Below are positions 48,483-57,629 of a stretch of DNA of 64,000 nt, in pieces. Source of the DNA: Paludisphaera mucosa. Lineage in GTDB: Bacteria > Planctomycetota > Planctomycetia > Isosphaerales > Isosphaeraceae. The stretch is from the NCBI RefSeq assembly GCF_029589435.1, contig NZ_JARRAG010000001.1, positions 2,036,808 to 2,100,807 on the forward strand. Direction: 5' to 3'. The notes under the pieces were generated by a model. The model ran no database searches. It saw only the letters and a list, made by a program, of their open reading frames with translations, and had not been told where the DNA came from. The first letter of the stretch is position 1; every line of letters starts with the position of its first letter. The position numbers and the translations under genes are program-made.

Positions 48483-49436
48483 TCAGTCGTGGTTTTCGAG
48501 CCGTCCCTGGTTCTTCTTCTTGGCGAGCTTGGGGGCGAGTTCATCGAGGAAGAGGTCGCGGGATTCGTCGGCCGCGCGGCGGAGGCGGGCGAGCAGGCCC
48601 TCGACGGACTCGTGGAAGGCCTCGTCCTGGCGGCCCAGGGCCACGAACGTCTCGACCTCGGTGAGCGCGACGACGGCGTCTTGATGTTCGCCGAGGACGT
48701 CCTGGATCTTGCGCGCCAGGTTGATGATCCGCCTGGCGCGCTTCTCGGGCTTCGGGCCCAGGGCGGAGGCGACCAGCTCGGTGGTGTAACGCGCCCGCTT
48801 GGCCCGCTTGCGGATCTCGTGGAAGGCCACGTCGGGGCTGTCGGCCGCGAGGCCGTCGGCGTCGCTCCGCAGCCGCTTCCACGCTTTCACCACGAGCGGC
48901 GGCAGGATCTTGCGGCAGGGCTTGCCGGCCCGCTCGCCGACCGGCGGGTCGTCGGCGGCCTTCTCAAGCTCGGCGAGCAGCTTCTTGAACCGTTCGCCCG
49001 TCAGGGTCCGGCGCATCGTCCGGCCCCCCTTCGTCCGCCGCCCTTCCAACCAGTCGAAGAGGGGCTTGAGCGCCAGGCGGTCGGCCTCGGACTCGCCCTT
49101 CTCGAAGCGTTCGCGGAGGACGTCCAGGTCGCGGACCTCGCCGATCGCGCCGCCGAGCCATCGCAGCTCGGCCGCCAGGTGGTCGCGCCACTCGGCGTCC
49201 AGCAGCTTCCCGAAGGCCTGCAGCTCGCTGCGGAGCCGGCGGGCCGATGTGCGCAGCCGATGCACGCCTTCCGGCTCGCCCCCGCGCGCGGCGGGGTCGG
49301 CGATTTGGATCCGCTCGATCGCCGTCCTTAAAGACGCGACGATCGCCTTCGAAGCAGGATCGTCGGGGCCCGTCCGCTCGCGGTCGTCGTCGGGTCGAGG
49401 GGCCTCGGGGACGCTGGGATTCGCTGGGGAGCTCAT
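48483..49436 (-). CDS. CHAD domain protein
   Basis: This 317-residue helical protein has the CHAD domain (conserved histidine alpha-helical). EGVHRLRTSARRLRSELQAF carries the first conserved His/Arg cluster and VAFHEIRKRAKRARYTTEL the second. CHAD proteins bind polyphosphate through these basic helices. No CYTH triphosphatase partner is adjacent. The ATG at 49436 is preferred over one 22 codons upstream because the upstream residues are cysteine-rich and atypical; its ribosome site is weak. It lies between two copies of a repeat element together with the release-factor-like gene. Confidence 0.82.
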   Translation of the reverse strand: MSSPANPSVPEAPRPDDDRERTGPDDPASKAIVASLRTAIERIQIADPAARGGEPEGVHRLRTSARRLRSELQAFGKLLDAEWRDHLAAELRWLGGAIGEVRDLDVLRERFEKGESEADRLALKPLFDWLEGRRTKGGRTMRRTLTGERFKKLLAELEKAADDPPVGERAGKPCRKILPPLVVKAWKRLRSDADGLAADSPDVAFHEIRKRAKRARYTTELVASALGPKPEKRARRIINLARKIQDVLGEHQDAVVALTEVETFVALGRQDEAFHESVEGLLARLRRAADESRDLFLDELAPKLAKKKNQGRLENHD

Positions 49437-49527
49437 GAGGGTCCAACAAACTGGAGAAGCTGTGCGGCAGTCCGCGTCCCTCACCATACGTCGTCGGTCC
49501 ACGTCGCCACAAGGCGGCTCCCGCGGC

Positions 49528-50028
49528 TTAACGCAACGGGTGCAGCCCCCGCAGGCCCCGCCGGGCGTTGACTTCGCCGAGCGCCCGGGGCTCGGCGGCG
49601 AGCAGCTTGACGAGCTGGGTCGACGAGCAGCCGAGGGCCGCGGCGGCCTCCTTCACATCGTCGTCGCGGCCGGCCAGGACGTCGAGGGCCTCGGCCAGGA
49701 GCGCGGGGAAGTCGTCGTGCTCGGGGCTGACGACGATCCGCCCTCCCCGCAGGCGGGACGCCCAGCGCGGGCTCGGCGCGGTCGCGGCGGGCGTGCGGAT
49801 CTCCAGCGCCAGCCGGAGTCGGAGCCGGAAGAGGGCCTCGCGGCGGTTCTCGCCCTGGGAACGGCGCTCGGAGGCCTCGGCCACGGTCCCGGTCGGCCGG
49901 TGGGTCAGGATGACGGCCGTCTCGACCTTGTTGCGGTTCTGCCCGCCGGGCCCCGAGCGCCGGGTCGTCCGGAAGTCGCACTCGGCGGCGAGCCGGTCGG
50001 GGTCGAGAGCCGCGGGATGGCCGCTCAT
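49528..50028 (-). CDS. GGQ-domain release-factor-like protein
   Basis: This 166-residue protein has the class I release-factor catalytic domain: TTRRSGPGGQNRNKVETAV with GGQ at 28-30, followed by RLRLRLALEIRT. It lacks the codon-recognition domain of RF1/RF2, like ArfB or the PrfH-type fragments that free stalled or damaged ribosomes. Its tail is not the strongly basic one of ArfB but a helical extension (about 95-150) of unknown role. There is no obvious Shine-Dalgarno site before the ATG. It is probably a rescue factor. Confidence 0.75.
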   Translation of the reverse strand: MSGHPAALDPDRLAAECDFRTTRRSGPGGQNRNKVETAVILTHRPTGTVAEASERRSQGENRREALFRLRLRLALEIRTPAATAPSPRWASRLRGGRIVVSPEHDDFPALLAEALDVLAGRDDDVKEAAAALGCSSTQLVKLLAAEPRALGEVNARRGLRGLHPLR

Positions 50029-50262: not shown

Positions 50263-51294
50263 TCAGCGAGTCCAGGTCCGGTTCCGAAGGGCGGCGAGGT
50301 CTTCGGTGGTCGCGACGCCCGTGGTGCCGACCTGATGGACGACGATCGACGAGGCGAGCACGGCCAGCTCGACGGCCTCGCCCAGCGAGGCCCCCGCCGC
50401 CAGCGCCGCGGCCAGGTTGGCCGTGACCGAATCGCCCGCGCCGACGACGTCGATGGGCCCCCGTACGGGCAGGGCGTCCGAGTGGACGACCTCGCCGTCG
50501 GGGCCGGCCGCGACGATCCCGCGCTCGGCCATCGTGACGAAGACCGGCCGGCCCGAGCCCAGCGCCAGCTCGGCGGCCGCCCGTTTGGCCTCCTCGATCG
50601 TCGAGACGCTCGGGCGGTCGAGCAGAGTCGCCAGCTCGGCCGCGTTCATTTTGAGGGCCACGGCCGGCCAGTCGCGGAGTCCCCGGCGCGAGTCGGCCAG
50701 GAAGAGGAGCCGGGGGTACTCGTCGGTCAAGGCGTCGATCGCCTGCAGCAGCCCGCGCGTGACCACGCCGGTCTCGGCCGCGTCGACCTGCTCCAGGACG
50801 ATCACCGCATGGCAACGCGCGGCGACCGCCCGCAGGCTGTCGATCAGGCGGAGTTCCAGGTGCCTCGGCGTCGGCGTCCAGTTCTTCGTGTCCAGCCGGT
50901 TCAGCTCGACGGGGACCTCGCCGGGGCGGACCACCAGCGGCTTGCAGTAGGTGAAGGTGCGGCGGTCGGGGGCCGTGAGCAGGTGCTCGGTGGAGACGCT
51001 GGGCGACGCTTCGAGCCCGCGTCGCAGCTCGTAGCCCTCGCCGTCGTCGCCCCGGAAGCCGACGACCTCGATCCGGCCCACGCCGAGCGCGACGAGGTTG
51101 TTGAGGACCGTCCCGGCCCCCCCCGGCTGGGCGCGGACGTTGGCGACGTTGTAGACCGGCAGGCCCGTCTCGATCGACGTCTCGGCGCGGGCCGGGTCGA
51201 TCTCCAGGTAGCGATCGAGGCAGAAGTCGCCGACCACCGCGATCCGCAGGCCCTTGTACAGCGAGACGACGTCCTGGAAGCGTTCCGGGGTCAT
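50263..51294 (-). CDS. PfkB-family kinase resembling heptose-7-phosphate kinase (HldE-N)
   Basis: This 343-residue ribokinase-fold enzyme has VVGDFCLDRYLEIDPARAE at the start and AQPGGAGTVLNNLVALGV for sugar binding, as in RfaE/HldE domain 1, and DVVGAGDSVTANLAAALAAG as the ATP/catalytic-base motif near 300. HldE-N puts a phosphate on C1 of D-glycero-manno-heptose 7-phosphate. The nucleotidyltransferase half of HldE is missing here. It is last in the four-gene operon; its ATG overlaps the previous stop (ATGA). A kinase for a related sugar phosphate is possible. Confidence 0.8.
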   Translation of the reverse strand: MTPERFQDVVSLYKGLRIAVVGDFCLDRYLEIDPARAETSIETGLPVYNVANVRAQPGGAGTVLNNLVALGVGRIEVVGFRGDDGEGYELRRGLEASPSVSTEHLLTAPDRRTFTYCKPLVVRPGEVPVELNRLDTKNWTPTPRHLELRLIDSLRAVAARCHAVIVLEQVDAAETGVVTRGLLQAIDALTDEYPRLLFLADSRRGLRDWPAVALKMNAAELATLLDRPSVSTIEEAKRAAAELALGSGRPVFVTMAERGIVAAGPDGEVVHSDALPVRGPIDVVGAGDSVTANLAAALAAGASLGEAVELAVLASSIVVHQVGTTGVATTEDLAALRNRTWTR

Positions 51295-52397
51295 GAAGCG
51301 GCGACCTGGTGGTAGAGGTTGTGGATGAACGCGGCGTTGTCGCACTGGAGGTAGTGCATCTCGCCCCCCATCCGGGCGTAGCTCTTGCAGAACCGCAGGT
51401 AATACGCCGGGTTCGACTTGGGGGGCTCGCCGGTGGTCCAGTCCCAGCCGCCGCCGTCCTGGACGTCGACCACGTAGATCGCGTGGTCCTCGACGATCGG
51501 CCGGCCGTCCTGGAGGCGGAGGTTGTTGACGCAGCTCAGGCTCTTCTCGAAGACCTGCGGGCCCATGATCGCCGATCCGACCGAGAGCACGACGCCGTGG
51601 TCGAGGGTCTCGACCGAGCCGCCGAACAGCCGGAAGTCGTGCTCGGCCGCCCGGCCGATCGCCGCGCCGTTGAAGATCGGATGGTTGGCGATGATGTCGT
51701 AGCCGATGCCGGGGTGGACGGTCATCGGGATCTTGTGCTGGAACGCCTGCGCCAGGATCGACGCGTGCTTCCACTCGTGCTCGACGATGATCCGGCCGGT
51801 CGGCAGATTGTTGGCCAGGATCGCCCGCAGGGCGTCGGCGCGGGGGGGGGCCAGGGGGTGGGCGGGCTCGTCGCGGAGGCTCTGCTCCAGCTCGGCGGCC
51901 GTCGGCAGGTCGACGCCGTCCTCGGCGATGAACCGGCCCAGGCCCGCGCCGTAACCCTCGCCGCGGAGGCCGGCGGCCAATAGCGCCAGGTGGATGTTGC
52001 GGCCGGTCTCGTCCCACGAGCCGAACGCCCCCAGCGGGACGTTCTCGCGGACGCTCTCGGTGGAACGGCCGATCCAGGCGTACTCCCAGTCGTGGATCGT
52101 GCCCGCGCCGTTGGTCGCCAGGTGGGTGACCCATTCCTTGGCCATCATGCGGCCGAGGATCGACGCGGCCCCGTTGCGCAGCAGGTGCGCGCCGTAGATC
52201 AGCATCACCCCCCCACCCATCTCGCGGGCCCGGCGGATGCGGCGGGCGCATTCGGCGACCCGCAAGGCGACCGGCCCCGGCAGGGGCTTGGGCTCGGCGT
52301 CGGGGTCGATCAGGACTTCCTCGACGGTCGTCAGGCTGCGGCGCTCTTCGAGGGGGTAGACGCGGAGCCGGGACAGGTCGAGCGGTCGGGTGTTCAT
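51291..52397 (-). CDS. Unknown operon protein with faint deoxyhypusine-synthase resemblance
   Basis: This 368-residue soluble protein overlaps both neighbours by four bases and so is tightly linked to the sugar operon. Segments such as GGGVMLIYGAHLLRNG (61-76), THLATNGAGTIHDWEYAW (about 91-108) and VHPGIGYDI, rich in glycines at strand ends, suggest a Rossmann-like nucleotide fold. The TNGAGTIHD motif resembles the TGANxxHD block of bacterial deoxyhypusine-synthase-like proteins. The lysine-containing DHS active site is not evident. I cannot assign a reaction; NAD-dependent sugar chemistry is a guess from context. Confidence 0.6.
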   Translation of the reverse strand: MNTRPLDLSRLRVYPLEERRSLTTVEEVLIDPDAEPKPLPGPVALRVAECARRIRRAREMGGGVMLIYGAHLLRNGAASILGRMMAKEWVTHLATNGAGTIHDWEYAWIGRSTESVRENVPLGAFGSWDETGRNIHLALLAAGLRGEGYGAGLGRFIAEDGVDLPTAAELEQSLRDEPAHPLAPPRADALRAILANNLPTGRIIVEHEWKHASILAQAFQHKIPMTVHPGIGYDIIANHPIFNGAAIGRAAEHDFRLFGGSVETLDHGVVLSVGSAIMGPQVFEKSLSCVNNLRLQDGRPIVEDHAIYVVDVQDGGGWDWTTGEPPKSNPAYYLRFCKSYARMGGEMHYLQCDNAAFIHNLYHQVAAS

Positions 52398-53233
52398 GAT
52401 CCCAGGATCAGCTCCAGAAGGGGCTTGGAATCGCGATAGTCGGGGATGACGACGTCGGCGCCGACGCCGGTGAGGCGGTCGCGCTTCCAGGCGTCCATCC
52501 GGCCCGATCCGTTGGCCGCCTCGTCGCTGGCCACGGCCACGGCCAGGCCGCCGACCTCCTTGGTGTTCTCGATCTCGACGTAGCCGTCGCCGAACGACAT
52601 CAGCTCCGCGCCGTGGATGTCGTTCTCGCGGAGGATCCGCTCGATCACCATCTTCTTCGAGAACGACTTGTAGTCGTCCTGGGCCCCGTAGATGTGGGTC
52701 CCGAAGTAGCGGGAGACGTCGAGCAGCTCGGCCTCGCGCCGCACGAACGGCTCGTCGGTGCCGCTGGCGAGATAGAGCGAAAGGCCGCGGCGCGTCAGGT
52801 CTTCCAGCAGGGCCCGCGAGCCGTGGACGAGCAGGTCGTCGGGCTTGATCGTGCCGTCCTTCAGGCCGTGCAGCCGGGCCATGATCCGGTCGTCGAGGCG
52901 GCGGAGGTACTCGTGCTTGTACCAGAGCGGCTCGCGGGGCTCGCCCCCGCGCTCGCGGACGCGGTCGGCGAGCTGGATCATCTGGTAGATGGTCTGCTTG
53001 CCGTTGAGCCGCATGATGTCTTCGAAGGCCAGCCGGCGGCGGTCCTCCTCCGACTCGCCGTCGAGGGCCGGCAGGACCTCGACGAACATGGGGACCATGA
53101 CGTCGGGCCAGCCCTGGCGGACCAGCGAGAGCGTGCCGTCGAAGTCGAAGACGACGCGGCTGATCCCGGGGCGGGGGGCGAACGACGGCAGCAGGATGAC
53201 CTCGCCTTCGAAGGTCGGGCTCGCGGGCGTCAC
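52394..53233 (-). CDS. HAD-superfamily phosphatase
   Basis: This 279-residue HAD enzyme has motif I VVFDFDGTLS (nucleophile D30, acid D32), motif II LASGTDE near 155, and motif IV FGDGYVEIEN with two acidic residues near 220. The insert between motifs I and II is helical, as in subclass I caps. The GTG start at 53233 follows AAGGAGA and overlaps the gmhA stop. In this operon it is placed to dephosphorylate a sugar bisphosphate, the GmhB step, though it is not a close GmhB sequence. A pseudouridine- or glycolate-type phosphatase is the alternative. Confidence 0.78.
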   Translation of the reverse strand: MTPASPTFEGEVILLPSFAPRPGISRVVFDFDGTLSLVRQGWPDVMVPMFVEVLPALDGESEEDRRRLAFEDIMRLNGKQTIYQMIQLADRVRERGGEPREPLWYKHEYLRRLDDRIMARLHGLKDGTIKPDDLLVHGSRALLEDLTRRGLSLYLASGTDEPFVRREAELLDVSRYFGTHIYGAQDDYKSFSKKMVIERILRENDIHGAELMSFGDGYVEIENTKEVGGLAVAVASDEAANGSGRMDAWKRDRLTGVGADVVIPDYRDSKPLLELILGS

Positions 53234-53799
53234 GCGGTCTCCTTTTCGATTTCCATGAACGCGTAGCAGATCAGGTGGTAGAGCGTCATCTGAACGTCCT
53301 CGACGCGGCCGTAGTGGGTGTCGGCCACGACGATCGTCTGCTCGGCGAGCGCGGCGCACCCGCCTTTCTTGGCGCCCACGAACGCGATCGTCCGCATGTC
53401 CCTGTCGCGGGCCCATTCCATCGCCTTGACCAGGTTCGGCGAGTTGCCGCTGACGCTGCTGGCGATCAGAACGTCGCCGGGCCGGGCGTGATTCTCCAGG
53501 GGGCGGACGAAGACGTCCTCGAAGCAATAATCGTTGCCGATGGCCGTGAGCCAGGCGACGTTGTCGGCCAGGGTGATGATCCGGAACCGGCGGCCGAGGG
53601 CGTCGCTGGCCCCCTTCCCCAGGTCGGTCGCGAAGTGCGACGCGCTGGCGGCGTTGCCGCCGTTGCCGATCACGAAGATCTGGCGATCCTCCTCCCAGGC
53701 CCGCCGCACCGTCGCGACGACGCGCTCGACGGCGTCGAGCGGGATCGAATCCAGGGCGCGGTGCTGGGCCTCGATGTAACGCGCCAGCCAGGACTGCAT
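53230..53799 (-). CDS. gmhA: SIS-domain sedoheptulose-7-phosphate isomerase-like protein
   Basis: This 189-residue single SIS-domain protein has FVIGNGGNAASASHFATDLGK (about 43-62) and ASSVSGNSPNLVKAM for the sugar phosphate, plus LTAIGNDYCFEDVF, which is strongly GmhA-like. GmhA turns sedoheptulose 7-phosphate into D-glycero-D-manno-heptose 7-phosphate. It is first in the operon with the HAD, unknown and kinase genes. The frame starts at the ATG at 53799; the ribosome site is not strong. DiaA-like SIS proteins are the main confounder, but the operon favours GmhA. Confidence 0.82.
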   Translation of the reverse strand: MQSWLARYIEAQHRALDSIPLDAVERVVATVRRAWEEDRQIFVIGNGGNAASASHFATDLGKGASDALGRRFRIITLADNVAWLTAIGNDYCFEDVFVRPLENHARPGDVLIASSVSGNSPNLVKAMEWARDRDMRTIAFVGAKKGGCAALAEQTIVVADTHYGRVEDVQMTLYHLICYAFMEIEKETA

Positions 53800-53877: not shown

Positions 53878-55083
53878 ATGGGGGTCCCCGGCGAATCCCC
53901 GGCCGGCGTCCCGCACTTGCCCGGTTCGGGGGGGGCCGGTACCTTGATAGCCGACCGCGACGCCGCGAGTGCGGCCCGCGCCCTCCCCCCGCCCCGAGTG
54001 CCAGCCGTGAAACCTCCCCCCTCGAGCCCGGTCGGATGGCGCAAGCCGGCGACCCGCGCGCTCAAGGCGGCGGTGGCCGTCCTCGTCTTCTGGGGGGTCG
54101 GCCGGCACGTCCTGCGCACCTGGGACGACCTGGGGCGGAGCGGGGCGACGCTGCAGCTCCATCCCGGATGGCTCGCCGCCTCGGGCCTGGCCTACCTGGT
54201 CGGCCTGGGATTCTGCGGGGCCTTCTACCGCGACGTCCTGGGGGCGAGCCCTACCCCGCTCTCGCGGTTCGCCGCCCAGCGGGCCTACCTGGTCAGCCAC
54301 CTGGGCAAGTACGTCCCCGGCAAGGCCGTGGTGGTCGTGATGCGCGCCGCGCTCTCGACCCCCTACGGCGTCCGGGCGTCGACCTCGGCCCTGGCCACGT
54401 TCTACGAGACGCTCGTCATGATGGCCTCGGGGGCGGCGATCGCCGCGGTCGTCTTCGCGGCGGGGGGCGATTCCCCGGTGATCAGGCTCGACCGCCCGCT
54501 CCTGGGCGTCCGCGAGGTCCGCGCCTTCGTCCTCTTCGCCCTGATCGCCGCGGGGCTGACGGCGGCCTTCCTGACGGTCGTCGCGCCGCCCGTCTTCCGC
54601 AAGTGCGCGGGGACGTTCCTGCTCAAGGTCCCGGGCGTCGGGGCCGACGCGCTGCCGACCCTGAGCTGGGGCCTGCTGGGGCTGGGGCTCGCCCGGACCG
54701 GGGTCGCGTGGGTCTTCCTGGGCTTGAGCCAGGTCGCCGCGGCCCGGGGGCTGGCCGGGGCCGGGATGGGGACGACGGCGTTCGACCCGGCGACGATCCC
54801 GGTCGTGGTGGCCAGCGTGGCCCTGGCGACGGTCGCCGGCTTCGTCGTGGCCGTCGCGCCCGGCGGGCTCGGCGTGCGCGAGAGCGTCTTGATGTACGCC
54901 CTGGGGCCGGCGTTCGGCCCGGGGCTCGCCGTGGCCGCCGCCCTGGTCCTCCGGCTCGTGTGGGTCGCCGCGGAAGTCCTCGCGGCGCTCGTCCTCGTCC
55001 CCCTGGGGAGGTCGTCCGGCCCGGAGCGGATCCGGGCGGCCGAGGAACTCCAGGAGGCGGTCCCGATATCGGAAGCCCCATGA
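53878..55083 (+). CDS. UPF0104/AglD-type polytopic membrane protein, flippase-like
   Basis: This 401-residue protein has about eight membrane helices of the lysylphosphatidylglycerol-synthase transmembrane-region family: FAAQRAYLVSHLGKYVPGK is the hallmark first cytoplasmic loop, and FVVAVAPGGLGVRESVLMYAL the second. Related proteins move lipids or lipid-linked sugars. The start is uncertain: ATG 53878 begins a proline-rich leader, and GTG codons at 53998 and 54007 are alternatives; none has a good ribosome site. It overlaps the GT2 gene by four bases, so the two are coupled. Confidence 0.8.
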   Translation: MGVPGESPAGVPHLPGSGGAGTLIADRDAASAARALPPPRVPAVKPPPSSPVGWRKPATRALKAAVAVLVFWGVGRHVLRTWDDLGRSGATLQLHPGWLAASGLAYLVGLGFCGAFYRDVLGASPTPLSRFAAQRAYLVSHLGKYVPGKAVVVVMRAALSTPYGVRASTSALATFYETLVMMASGAAIAAVVFAAGGDSPVIRLDRPLLGVREVRAFVLFALIAAGLTAAFLTVVAPPVFRKCAGTFLLKVPGVGADALPTLSWGLLGLGLARTGVAWVFLGLSQVAAARGLAGAGMGTTAFDPATIPVVVASVALATVAGFVVAVAPGGLGVRESVLMYALGPAFGPGLAVAAALVLRLVWVAAEVLAALVLVPLGRSSGPERIRAAEELQEAVPISEAP

Positions 55084-56099
55084 TCAGCGTCGTCGTCCCG
55101 GTCTGCAACGAGGAAGCCAGCCTGATCGCCCTGCACCGCGAGCTGGACGCGGCCTTCGCGCGGCTGGGCGGCGAGGCCGAGTTCATCTTCATCGACGACG
55201 GCAGCCGCGATGGCTCGTGGCGGGTCGTCGAGGAACTCGCCCGCCTCGACCCCCGCGTGCGCGGGATCCGCTTCCGGCGCAACTTCGGCAAGGCCTCGGC
55301 CCTGACGGCCGGCTTCCAGGCCGCGGTCGGCGAGCGGGTCTTCACGCTCGACGCCGACCTGCAGGACGACCCCGCGGAGATCCCCCGGTTCCTGGAGCGG
55401 CTCGACTCCGGGCTCGACGTGGTGAGCGGCTGGAAGCGGACCCGGCACGACCCCTGGCACAAGGTCTATCCCAGCCGCGTCTTCAACGCGATGGTCAGCC
55501 GCCTGACCGGCTGCCGCCTGCACGACCACAACTGCGGCTTCAAGGCCTACCGGGCCGAGGTCCTCCGCGAGGTCGGCATCTACGGCGAGCTGCACCGCTT
55601 CGTCCCGGCCCTGGCCTTCGCCAAGGGGTTCCGCGTCGGCGAGCTGGAGGTCCACCATAGGCCTCGCGAGCACGGCCAGTCGAAGTACGGCTTCACCCGC
55701 TTCCTGAAGGGGTTCCTCGACCTGCTGACGGTCGTCTTCCTCACCCGGTTCCGCCAGCGCCCGCTGCACATCTTCGGCGGCTCGGGGCTGGTGCTCTCGT
55801 CCCTGGGCGTCCTGGGGATGCTGTACATGGCCGGCCTGTGGGTGCTCAACCGCCTCTGGGTCGTCGACGCAGGCCGGCCCGAGCCCCACCCGATCGGCAC
55901 GCGGCCCCTGCTCTCGTACTCGATCGCCCTGCTGGTCGTGGGCGTGCAGCTCTTCTGCCTGGGGATCGTCGCCGAGCTGATGACCTCCTACAGCCTGCGC
56001 GCGTCCGACACTTACAGCATCGCCGAGACCCTCCGCCCCCGCGTCTCCGATCGATCGGATCGCGACGTCGCGACCGCCTCCTCGCAACCGGAAGTCTGA
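55080..56099 (+). CDS. GT2 glycosyltransferase with membrane tail (DPM1/GtrB/ArnC-like)
   Basis: This 339-residue enzyme has SVVVPVCNEEASLIALH at the start, FIDDGSRDGSW, and TLDADLQDDPAEIP with the metal-binding DxD, then HRPREHGQSKYG. The C-terminus has two membrane helices (about 230-260 and 275-305). Enzymes of this subgroup put a sugar from a nucleotide donor onto polyprenyl phosphate on the cytoplasmic face. GGAGGCGG precedes the ATG, which lies in the flippase gene's stop. The next membrane protein gene follows after six bases. Confidence 0.88.
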   Translation: MISVVVPVCNEEASLIALHRELDAAFARLGGEAEFIFIDDGSRDGSWRVVEELARLDPRVRGIRFRRNFGKASALTAGFQAAVGERVFTLDADLQDDPAEIPRFLERLDSGLDVVSGWKRTRHDPWHKVYPSRVFNAMVSRLTGCRLHDHNCGFKAYRAEVLREVGIYGELHRFVPALAFAKGFRVGELEVHHRPREHGQSKYGFTRFLKGFLDLLTVVFLTRFRQRPLHIFGGSGLVLSSLGVLGMLYMAGLWVLNRLWVVDAGRPEPHPIGTRPLLSYSIALLVVGVQLFCLGIVAELMTSYSLRASDTYSIAETLRPRVSDRSDRDVATASSQPEV

Positions 56100-56105
56100 G
56101 GAACC

Positions 56106-57629
56106 ATGAGCACCGCCGAAGCCCACGAGCCCCCGGTCGACGTTTCGGCCCCGCGCAGCGAGCCCCGCCGCCTGATCGGCACGCTCTTGATCGCGACCGC
56201 CACGGCCCTGGCCCTCGGCGCCCTGCTCCGTCAGCCGACCATGATGGGCGCCAACGACATCTCGCGCTGGTGCACCATCTGGAGCCTGCTGGAGCGGGGC
56301 ACGTACGTCATCGACGACTGCCCCTGGCATCCCGAGACCCAGGACAAGGTCCAGATCCCCGCCAATCCGCCCCAGGACGGCCCCGACGGCCAGCCCCTGA
56401 AGCACTACTACTCCAGCAAGCCGGCCCTGCTGCCGACCCTGATCGCCGGCCTGCTCTACCCGGCCCGGACGCTCGTGGGCGTCCCGCTCGACCGGGTCGT
56501 GCTCCAGCCTCGCGAGGCCCGCTGGTCGCAGGTCCCCGACCCGGACCACCCCGGGAAGGTGAAGGGGGTCCTGACCACGCCCGACCAGCCCGTGAAGTGG
56601 CCGTCGTACGTCTACTATTTCAAGCCGATCCTGATCCTCCTGAACATCATCCCGTTCTGCGGCTTCCTCGTCCTCTTCGCCCGCATCCTCGACCGCTGCG
56701 CCCGGACCGACTGGGCCTGGACGTACAGCCTGTTCGCCGCGGCCTTCGGGACGTACCTGCTCCCCTACACCCAGACGCTCAACAACCACACCGTCGCGGC
56801 CTTCACGGCGTTCTTCGCCCTCGACCAGTTCCTGCGGATCTGGGACGACGGCGCCGACGAGGGATGGCGGTTCGCGCTGGTGGGCCTGCTCGCCGGCTTC
56901 ACGGCCACCAACGAGCTGCCCGCCGCCGCGTTCCTGGGGTTGCTCGGCCTGGCACTCGCGGCGCGGTACCCGGCGCGGACGATCGCCTGGTTCGTCCCCT
57001 TCGCGGCCCTGCCGCTGCTGGCCCTGGCCACCTCGCAGTACGCGGCCTTCGGGAAGTTCAAGCTGGCCTACGAGGAGTTCGGGACCGACGCCTACGAGTT
57101 CGAGGGGAGCCTCTGGAAGACCCCCCTGGAGCTGGACGCCCTGAATCTCCCCTGGACCAAGCCCGAGGAGGCGGCCCGCCGCGGGATCGTCGGCGAGTCG
57201 TACGCCAAGTACCTCTTGCACATGACGCTCGGCCACCACGGCTTCTGGTCGCTCTCGCCGATCTTCCTGGTGGCCGCGATCGGGCTGGTGAGCTTACTGC
57301 GCACCCGGGGTCGGCTGTCGGCCGTCGCCTGGCTGACGCTCGGGCTGACCGTGATTTTGCTGGCCTTCTACACCTGGAATCCCAAGGCCCGCAACTACGG
57401 CGGCTCGGCGCAGGGGCTGCGCTGGCTCTTCTGGCTGATCCCGTTCTGGCTGCTGATGCTCCCCGCCGCCCTGGACGCGATCGCCGACCGGCCCTGGCTG
57501 CGACGGCTGGCCGTGCTGGCCCTGTTCGTCTCGGTCATGTCGGTCGGCTATGCGATGCGCGGGCCCTGGAGCAACCCCTGGATCCAGGACATGATCGAGC
57601 ACCTGGGGCTCTATACGCTGCCCCGCTGA
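56106..57629 (+). CDS. Polytopic membrane protein, possible GT-C glycosyltransferase
   Basis: This 507-residue protein has around ten hydrophobic helices and a long soluble loop between helices one and two (about 45-155), where GT-C enzymes (GT39/GT83) place catalytic acidic residues. Seen here are NDISRWCTIWSLLERGTY with an Asp and later KHYYSSKPALLP. Near the end is NYGGSAQGLRWLFWLIPF. Its location after a polyprenyl-phosphate GT2 enzyme and a flippase suits a GT-C enzyme using the flipped lipid-sugar. That is inference; no clear family motif is present. Confidence 0.65.
   Translation: MSTAEAHEPPVDVSAPRSEPRRLIGTLLIATATALALGALLRQPTMMGANDISRWCTIWSLLERGTYVIDDCPWHPETQDKVQIPANPPQDGPDGQPLKHYYSSKPALLPTLIAGLLYPARTLVGVPLDRVVLQPREARWSQVPDPDHPGKVKGVLTTPDQPVKWPSYVYYFKPILILLNIIPFCGFLVLFARILDRCARTDWAWTYSLFAAAFGTYLLPYTQTLNNHTVAAFTAFFALDQFLRIWDDGADEGWRFALVGLLAGFTATNELPAAAFLGLLGLALAARYPARTIAWFVPFAALPLLALATSQYAAFGKFKLAYEEFGTDAYEFEGSLWKTPLELDALNLPWTKPEEAARRGIVGESYAKYLLHMTLGHHGFWSLSPIFLVAAIGLVSLLRTRGRLSAVAWLTLGLTVILLAFYTWNPKARNYGGSAQGLRWLFWLIPFWLLMLPAALDAIADRPWLRRLAVLALFVSVMSVGYAMRGPWSNPWIQDMIEHLGLYTLPR

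Follow-up and report, generated by a model that had tools for sequence, protein, structure and literature searches.

A GSU2086-family protein in a heptose-like operon of Paludisphaera mucosa as a candidate nickel-pincer nucleotide enzyme acting on sugar phosphates

On the minus strand of a 64,000-nucleotide stretch of the genome of the planctomycete Paludisphaera mucosa (contig NZ_JARRAG010000001.1, positions 2,036,808 to 2,100,807; hereafter the window, whose own numbering is used for all its features), four genes with open frames run from 53799 to 50263. They encode, in order, a GmhA-like SIS sugar-phosphate isomerase (53230..53799; 189 residues, ATG start; PF13580, 60.9 bits), a HAD-superfamily phosphatase (52394..53233; 279 residues, GTG start; PF00702, 1.4e-11, and PF13419, 7.2e-7), a 368-residue protein of the GSU2086 family (51291..52397; ATG start; NF052581), which is a candidate hidden-redox enzyme using either the nickel-pincer nucleotide (NPN) or nicotinamide adenine dinucleotide (NAD), and a PfkB sugar kinase resembling the N-terminal part of HldE (50263..51294; 343 residues, ATG start; PF00294, 97.2 bits). 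The host genome, which totals 8.2 Mb over 9 contigs, is rated 100% complete. We propose, as a reading that has an even chance of being correct, that this operon specifies a heptose-type sugar-phosphate route of variant form, one step of which would be epimerase-like, work by hidden redox, and probably depend on NPN. The proposal builds on the gene set and its conservation, the predicted fold of the third protein, the kinship of that protein with the cyclodeaminase family, and the tendency of its gene to occur together with those for NPN synthesis.

Each junction within the operon is a four-base stop/start overlap, since the junctions read, in gene order, GCGTGACG, TCATGAAC and TTCATGACC: GTGA between the isomerase and HAD genes (53230..53233), ATGA between the HAD and GSU2086-family genes (52394..52397), and ATGA between the latter and the kinase gene (51291..51294), all on the minus strand. 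An initial annotation, made from the letters of the DNA alone, had described these genes and overlaps, and all frames and junctions are confirmed here. Its suggestion that the four genes form one functional unit is strengthened by the retention of their order in other genomes and by the fusion of the HAD and kinase genes. Conservation was assessed in 100 loci bearing the third gene, 20 from a planctomycete genome set and 80 from named records (the best 80 of 583), with order counts based on the 82 loci that have at least 1.2 kb on either side. In 34 of these 82, both a HAD and a kinase gene lie within 3 kb and share the strand of the third gene (28 of 63 named and 6 of 19 planctomycete-set loci). 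The full four-gene order, whose absence from all relatives would have told against the initial annotation, is found in five of the 100 loci, from two phyla: L034, L054 (Paludisphaera soli; Planctomycetota, Isosphaeraceae), L057 (a metagenome-assembled genome [MAG] of Isosphaeraceae), L062 (an Opitutae MAG), and L126 (Chthoniobacter flavus). P. soli is the closest named record here, its third protein being 90% identical to that of the window. In the stretches inspected, the GTGA/ATGA/ATGA overlaps are retained in P. soli and C. flavus, and L034 has ATGA at all three junctions. The HAD and kinase modules are fused in one reading frame in L042 (by Pfam and BLAST) and L040 (by BLAST). Searches for neighbors extended to 130 loci of relatives, 85 of which are at least 8 kb long, with the rest too short to reveal distant neighbors and five genomes represented twice.

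Family, fold, and conserved residues of the third protein

The initial annotation had left the third protein without a named function; it belongs, however, to the NCBIfam family NF052581, the GSU2086 family (332 bits over residues 5-363, against a curated cut-off of 250). According to the electrode-growth gene table of PMC5585712, insertions in Geobacter sulfurreducens hldE (GSU2085), GSU2086, and gmhA (GSU2087), which bear consecutive locus numbers, impair growth on electrodes, with transposon-sequencing values of -3.1, -3.2, and -3.7, respectively, to which polar effects could contribute. The table describes GSU2086 as hypothetical and cytoplasmic and places it in an operon for sugar biosynthesis. 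The window protein thus belongs to the same family and keeps the same company of a GmhA and an HldE-type kinase, whereas the window kinase is without the adenylyltransferase domain and a HAD gene has been added. Compared with the short forms of the family, the window protein is of a long type, with about 50 extra residues near 160-210. Because the literature searched gives neither a function for the family nor a tie to NPN, the cofactor link proposed here is, as far as that literature goes, new.

An AlphaFold2 model of the third protein, based on an alignment of 21 sequences (predicted local distance difference test 91.5; predicted template-modeling score 0.90), finds its best match among solved structures in the ornithine-cyclodeaminase part of AgrE/ArgZ (6lrf; Z 18.6, 3.2 A, 214 residues), and it also matches the deoxyhypusine synthase of P. 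horikoshii (7cmc; Z 17.7, 3.6 A, 250 residues), the highest Z found for a deoxyhypusine synthase. Both the AgrE/ArgZ ornithine cyclodeaminase and deoxyhypusine synthase are enzymes of internal redox chemistry, and the model suggests that the third protein shares the fold of this hidden-redox family. Profile comparisons point to homology with AgrE/ArgZ (2e-5) and with the TIGR00300 protein of the same genome (E 3.2e-8 over 68 columns), including a common GAH/HD-E stretch, although the similarity covers only about residues 15-112. The window protein is not itself a member of TIGR00300 (19.6 bits, residues 43-112 only, against a cut-off of 410.8). It has no match at E up to 1 to PF01916 (deoxyhypusine synthase), despite the common fold, nor to PF09861 (Lar_N, of the LarA superfamily), and a direct profile link to the deoxyhypusine synthase of its own genome was rejected (hhalign probability of 0.1%). 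With the NPN racemases and epimerases of the LarA superfamily it would share the proposed cofactor and the hidden-redox logic, whereas the known LarA substrates, as given in PMC7583248 and PMC11770544, are 2-hydroxy acids.

The full TIGR00300 protein of this genome (530 bits) is encoded at L145:7495-8775 (C2, about 2271494-2272774) and has an LOR/SDH N-terminal region that is not listed among the Pfam matches of the window protein. On visual inspection, the frame that follows it resembles an arginine dihydrolase, and the pair is possibly a split version of the cyanobacterial AgrE/ArgZ.

The alignment of 21 sequences, which mixes long and short types, contains 38 invariant columns. In 93 sequences, mostly of the long type, a conservation of at least 97% is seen at 63 positions. 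Among them are His71, His102, His228, His239, Asp103, Asp234, and Asp254, as well as Glu105, Glu114, Glu130, and Lys285, each of which is unchanged across the mixed set too.

Co-occurrence with the genes for the nickel-pincer nucleotide

According to PMC7583248 and PMC11770544, the synthesis of NPN relies on LarB, LarE, and LarC. A 2024 study (PMC11796402) reports that about 15% of the genomes that it analyzed have larB, larC, and larE but not larA, infers from these the existence of NPN proteins other than LarA, and describes a Duet expression system in Escherichia coli. NCBIfam, for its part, names TIGR00300 "ornithine cyclodeaminase, nickel-pincer nucleotide-dependent," a label whose basis we did not find in the literature searched. 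Because of this label, and because NPN genomes without larA imply other users, we compared the distributions of the GSU2086 family, larC, larA, larB, and, as a control, deoxyhypusine synthase across 392 genomes of Planctomycetota, the single phylum covered, the counts being of gene presence and not of cofactor use. Carriers were defined by a best match of E < 1e-40 (180 genomes, 175 of which pass the curated cut-off). Another 58 weaker matches were kept separate; 34 of them (E < 1e-4) were treated as TIGR00300-like by E-value only, and larC is present with 7 of the 24 weakest. Six very weak deoxyhypusine synthase matches were removed before the control test. Strong larB (E < 1e-30) was classed for carriers only, 161 of the 180 having it, and the larE search covered the P. 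mucosa genome itself and the 14 larC-negative carriers.

larC, the gene of the NPN nickel inserter, is found in 166 of the 180 carriers and in 121 of the 212 non-carriers (odds ratio [OR] 8.9, p 4e-16). The association is also seen among genomes that have no larA, with larC in 85 of 94 carriers and 45 of 116 others (OR 14.9, p 2e-15). When carriers are restricted to those with a completeness of 90% or more, larC is present in 109 of 110 and, where larA is missing, in 61 of 61. Since more than one match in a genome could conceal a TIGR00300 gene, carriers with a single family match were tested apart; of those without larA, 35 of 43 have larC, against 32 of 101 genomes that lack GSU2086, larA, and TIGR00300-like genes alike (p 5e-8). 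The TIGR00300-like genomes, which serve as a positive control by virtue of NCBI's label, contain larC in 32 of 34 instances. Deoxyhypusine synthase, on the other hand, shows far weaker co-occurrence with larC (OR 1.4, p 0.15; p 0.27 without larA), and the presence of the family is unrelated to that of larA (p 0.68), even though both associate with larC. In a joint model for larC, the ORs are 14.9 for GSU2086 (p 2e-15), 5.8 for larA, and 14.6 for the TIGR00300-like genes. The relatedness of the genomes was partly controlled: within eight taxonomic families, using the genomes without larA among the matches listed, the Cochran-Mantel-Haenszel pooled OR is 9.5 (p 0.007), with the signal coming mainly from the family f34 (8/8 versus 2/8) and with f20 and f30 offering no contrast.

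These distributions lead us to favor NPN, by a small measure, as the cofactor of the GSU2086 family, with NAD as its main rival. A wider claim, to which we give slightly less than an even chance, is that GSU2086 is a second non-LarA NPN family beside the cyclodeaminase and the first to act on sugar phosphates, and that it explains most of the sampled Planctomycetota with larC but not larA, 85 of 130 of which carry it. As a separate observation, both GSU2086-family and TIGR00300-like genes are missing from 32 of these 130 genomes; therefore, further non-LarA users of NPN may exist.

Several observations weigh against the NPN-dependent route. The Foldseek TM-scores of the model are modest, at about 0.4-0.5, and the solved relative 6lrg contains ornithine and NAD+. 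Deoxyhypusine synthase, the fold control, keeps an OR of 2.0 (p 0.018) in the joint model, and the direction of the association is reversed within f47 and, by one genome, within f46. tblastn with queries from P. mucosa found no larC or larE near the gene in the 130 loci of relatives, many of which are short, and neither a HAD nor a kinase gene lies on the gene's strand in 34 of the 82 loci of the order counts (in one of these, L045, both are present on the other strand). Strong larB or larE is present in 10 of the 14 larC-negative carriers, whereas the other four lack all three genes, namely G175 (78% complete) and the f30 genomes G026, G051, and G089 (79-85% complete), in which there is no larC, no larE over the cut-off, and no larB match. 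Gaps in the assemblies can hardly explain a pattern seen in three of three f30 genomes, and this family represents either an NPN-independent branch or one with divergent NPN genes. The f30 site does not look different, since L044 (from G089), the sole f30 protein aligned, retains every invariant residue of the alignment. The G089 gene is of the same long type as that of the window. Among the matches listed, at least 14 carriers are of this type as identified by match length; 13 of the 14 have larC, 12 have larA too, and of the two without larA, G029 has larC and G089 does not. The long subfamily thus gives little independent support, and NPN use by the window's subfamily rests mainly on homology, because its larC evidence is confounded by larA.

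Some of these points lend weight to an alternative that we regard as possible but distinctly less probable, namely that the GSU2086-family enzyme performs NAD+-dependent hidden-redox chemistry, epimerizing or dehydrating a heptose-type phosphate, and that the larC link reflects shared ancestry or ecology. The fold family binds NAD+, as in 6lrg and the deoxyhypusine synthase structures; the f30 genomes hold the gene without NPN genes; and with kinship only partly controlled, deoxyhypusine synthase is itself weakly tied to larC in the joint model. Nevertheless, taken alone, this NAD-dependent relative of the same fold does not approach the association of GSU2086 with larC, and the independence of larA and GSU2086, when both are associated with larC, likewise speaks against this account.

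Isomerase, phosphatase, and kinase in a possible route

The initial annotation had likened the isomerase, phosphatase, and kinase to the first steps of heptose synthesis, in a variant route or one leading to a different sugar. The likeness survives in that the nearest families of the isomerase and kinase are those of heptose metabolism, not unrelated sugar families, but the account was incomplete, since HldE and HldD are encoded elsewhere in the genome and the third protein has the predicted fold of a hidden-redox family. The isomerase is closest to GmhA (TIGR00441, 110.8 bits, under the cut-off of 209.45), and the kinase is closest to the kinase domain of HldE (TIGR02198, 136.1 bits, under the cut-off of 345), with the heptose 7-phosphate kinase 4e84 as its best PDB match. 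Scores so much lower than the heptose cut-offs make the initial annotation's alternative of a variant route or a different sugar a fair one. Seven homologues in the alignment of the isomerase subfamily share the motifs T-D-(L/V)-G-K-(G/C) and HYGRVED, where three other aligned GmhA-like proteins have GEL and (R/K)(I/V)QE. Placed by alignment to the chain 2i22, these motifs fall on what we take to be Glu65 and Gln172 of E. coli GmhA. Of the four residues that we presume to be catalytic or metal binding (His61, Glu65, Gln172, and His180 in E. coli numbering), this alignment suggests that the two histidines are retained and that Glu65 is replaced by Asp and Gln172 by Glu. The Pfam and NCBIfam matches listed for the HAD protein comprise general HAD, phosphoglycolate-phosphatase, and other non-heptose models only, with no GmhB or histidinol-phosphatase-type heptose-bisphosphatase model among them. 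The kinase was correctly described at the outset as being without a nucleotidyltransferase: the Pfam matches listed are PfkB and a weak Phos_pyr_kin only, with no C-terminal adenylyltransferase (cytidylyltransferase-like) domain, a domain that is present in the HldE of L050 and in the genome's own HldE.

The latter is a full HldE of 489 residues on contig 3 (L143), with its adenylyltransferase domain over the cut-off, and an HldD over the cut-off is encoded on contig 2; therefore, the operon is not the sole heptose-type gene set of the organism. With the window isomerase as the query, a single other SIS protein is found in the genome. As it is likewise under the GmhA cut-off, the genome may be without a canonical GmhA, and the window isomerase may serve more than one route. 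This second GmhA-like protein is encoded at L150:2423-3052 (C2), where by eye a ROK-type kinase overlaps it in another frame.

These circumstances bear on a second alternative, which we consider unlikely, that the operon performs ordinary adenosine diphosphate (ADP)-heptose synthesis, with gmhA, gmhB, and hldA as its enzyme genes and a third protein that serves as an accessory or regulatory subunit. The nearest families of the isomerase and kinase, the HldE and HldD elsewhere, and the chance that the window isomerase serves that route, given that neither of the two SIS proteins found with it as the query passes the GmhA cut-off, would all fit such an arrangement. However, since a full HldE already exists, a second kinase is unneeded; the isomerase and kinase score at roughly 50% of the equivalog cut-offs or lower; the isomerase motifs are altered at positions presumed to be catalytic; and the third protein has a predicted enzyme fold along with its invariant columns, which fits poorly with an accessory subunit. 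In sum, the operon has the isomerase, kinase, and phosphatase classes in common with the GmhA/HldE/GmhB/HldD pathway, but its subfamilies have diverged, its phosphatase matches no GmhB model, and it adds an enzyme of putative hidden-redox fold while carrying no nucleotidyltransferase.

For the variant route that we favor instead, we infer the order of steps, the substrate, the product, the cofactor, and the epimerization as follows. The GmhA-like isomerase would convert sedoheptulose 7-phosphate, or a ketose phosphate much like it, to an aldose phosphate. The GSU2086-family enzyme, which would most simply be an epimerase acting on a phosphorylated sugar, would then change a stereocenter by hidden redox, with a hydride removed from a carbinol carbon and then returned; the cofactor would most likely be NPN and otherwise NAD. 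The kinase would add a second phosphate and the HAD phosphatase would remove one to yield a sugar 1-phosphate, which would pass to a nucleotidyltransferase encoded elsewhere.

Genomic neighborhood and biological meaning

The surroundings of the gene in other genomes bear on the kind of metabolism involved. The short-type genes of L049 and L050 lie near a bifunctional HldE, in L050 together with GmhA. A gene for LpxK, the lipid A kinase (PF02606), is found upstream of a short-type GSU2086 gene at L048:9420-10511. In two acidobacterial loci (L066:11117-12025 and L082:11117-12025), the gene is without HAD and kinase partners and adjoins a convergent HldD-like gene, whose product is 43% identical to the HldD of P. 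mucosa. The proteins of relatives' loci that underlie the Pfam annotation were picked via ad hoc gene calls, which are poor in GC-rich DNA. Isomerases, kinases, and phosphatases are also found in catabolic sets, and the operon is without a nucleotidyltransferase, both of which would suit the degradation or salvage of a phosphorylated sugar or sugar acid in place of nucleotide-sugar synthesis. PMC7583248 likewise describes LarA-family NPN enzymes that act on sugar acids such as D-gluconate, but we hold a catabolic role to be improbable, as the company of bifunctional HldE and LpxK in L048, L049, and L050 is that of cell-envelope biosynthesis and the Geobacter table (PMC5585712) assigns GSU2086 to sugar biosynthesis.

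Divergent to the operon, at 53878-57629, the window contains genes for an LPG_synthase_TM flippase-like protein, a GT2 glycosyltransferase, and a 507-residue protein with no Pfam match, into which the initial annotation had the pathway feeding. Of the 130 loci, P. soli (L054) alone has all three next to the operon, and L071 gives a weak GT2 match; for this reason they were dropped as a part of the system. Downstream of the operon, at 48483-50028, lie two genes, one for a protein of the peptide-release type with an RF-1 domain and the other for a CHAD-domain protein; both are likewise downstream of the operon in L054 and L055.

Taken together, these findings present the GSU2086 family as a concrete and widespread candidate for a non-LarA user of NPN, one for which a pathway setting, a fold prediction, and a list of invariant residues are at hand. 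If the proposal is true, nickel chemistry would enter sugar-phosphate metabolism, and probably the synthesis of cell-surface sugars, in Planctomycetota and their relatives as well as in Geobacter.

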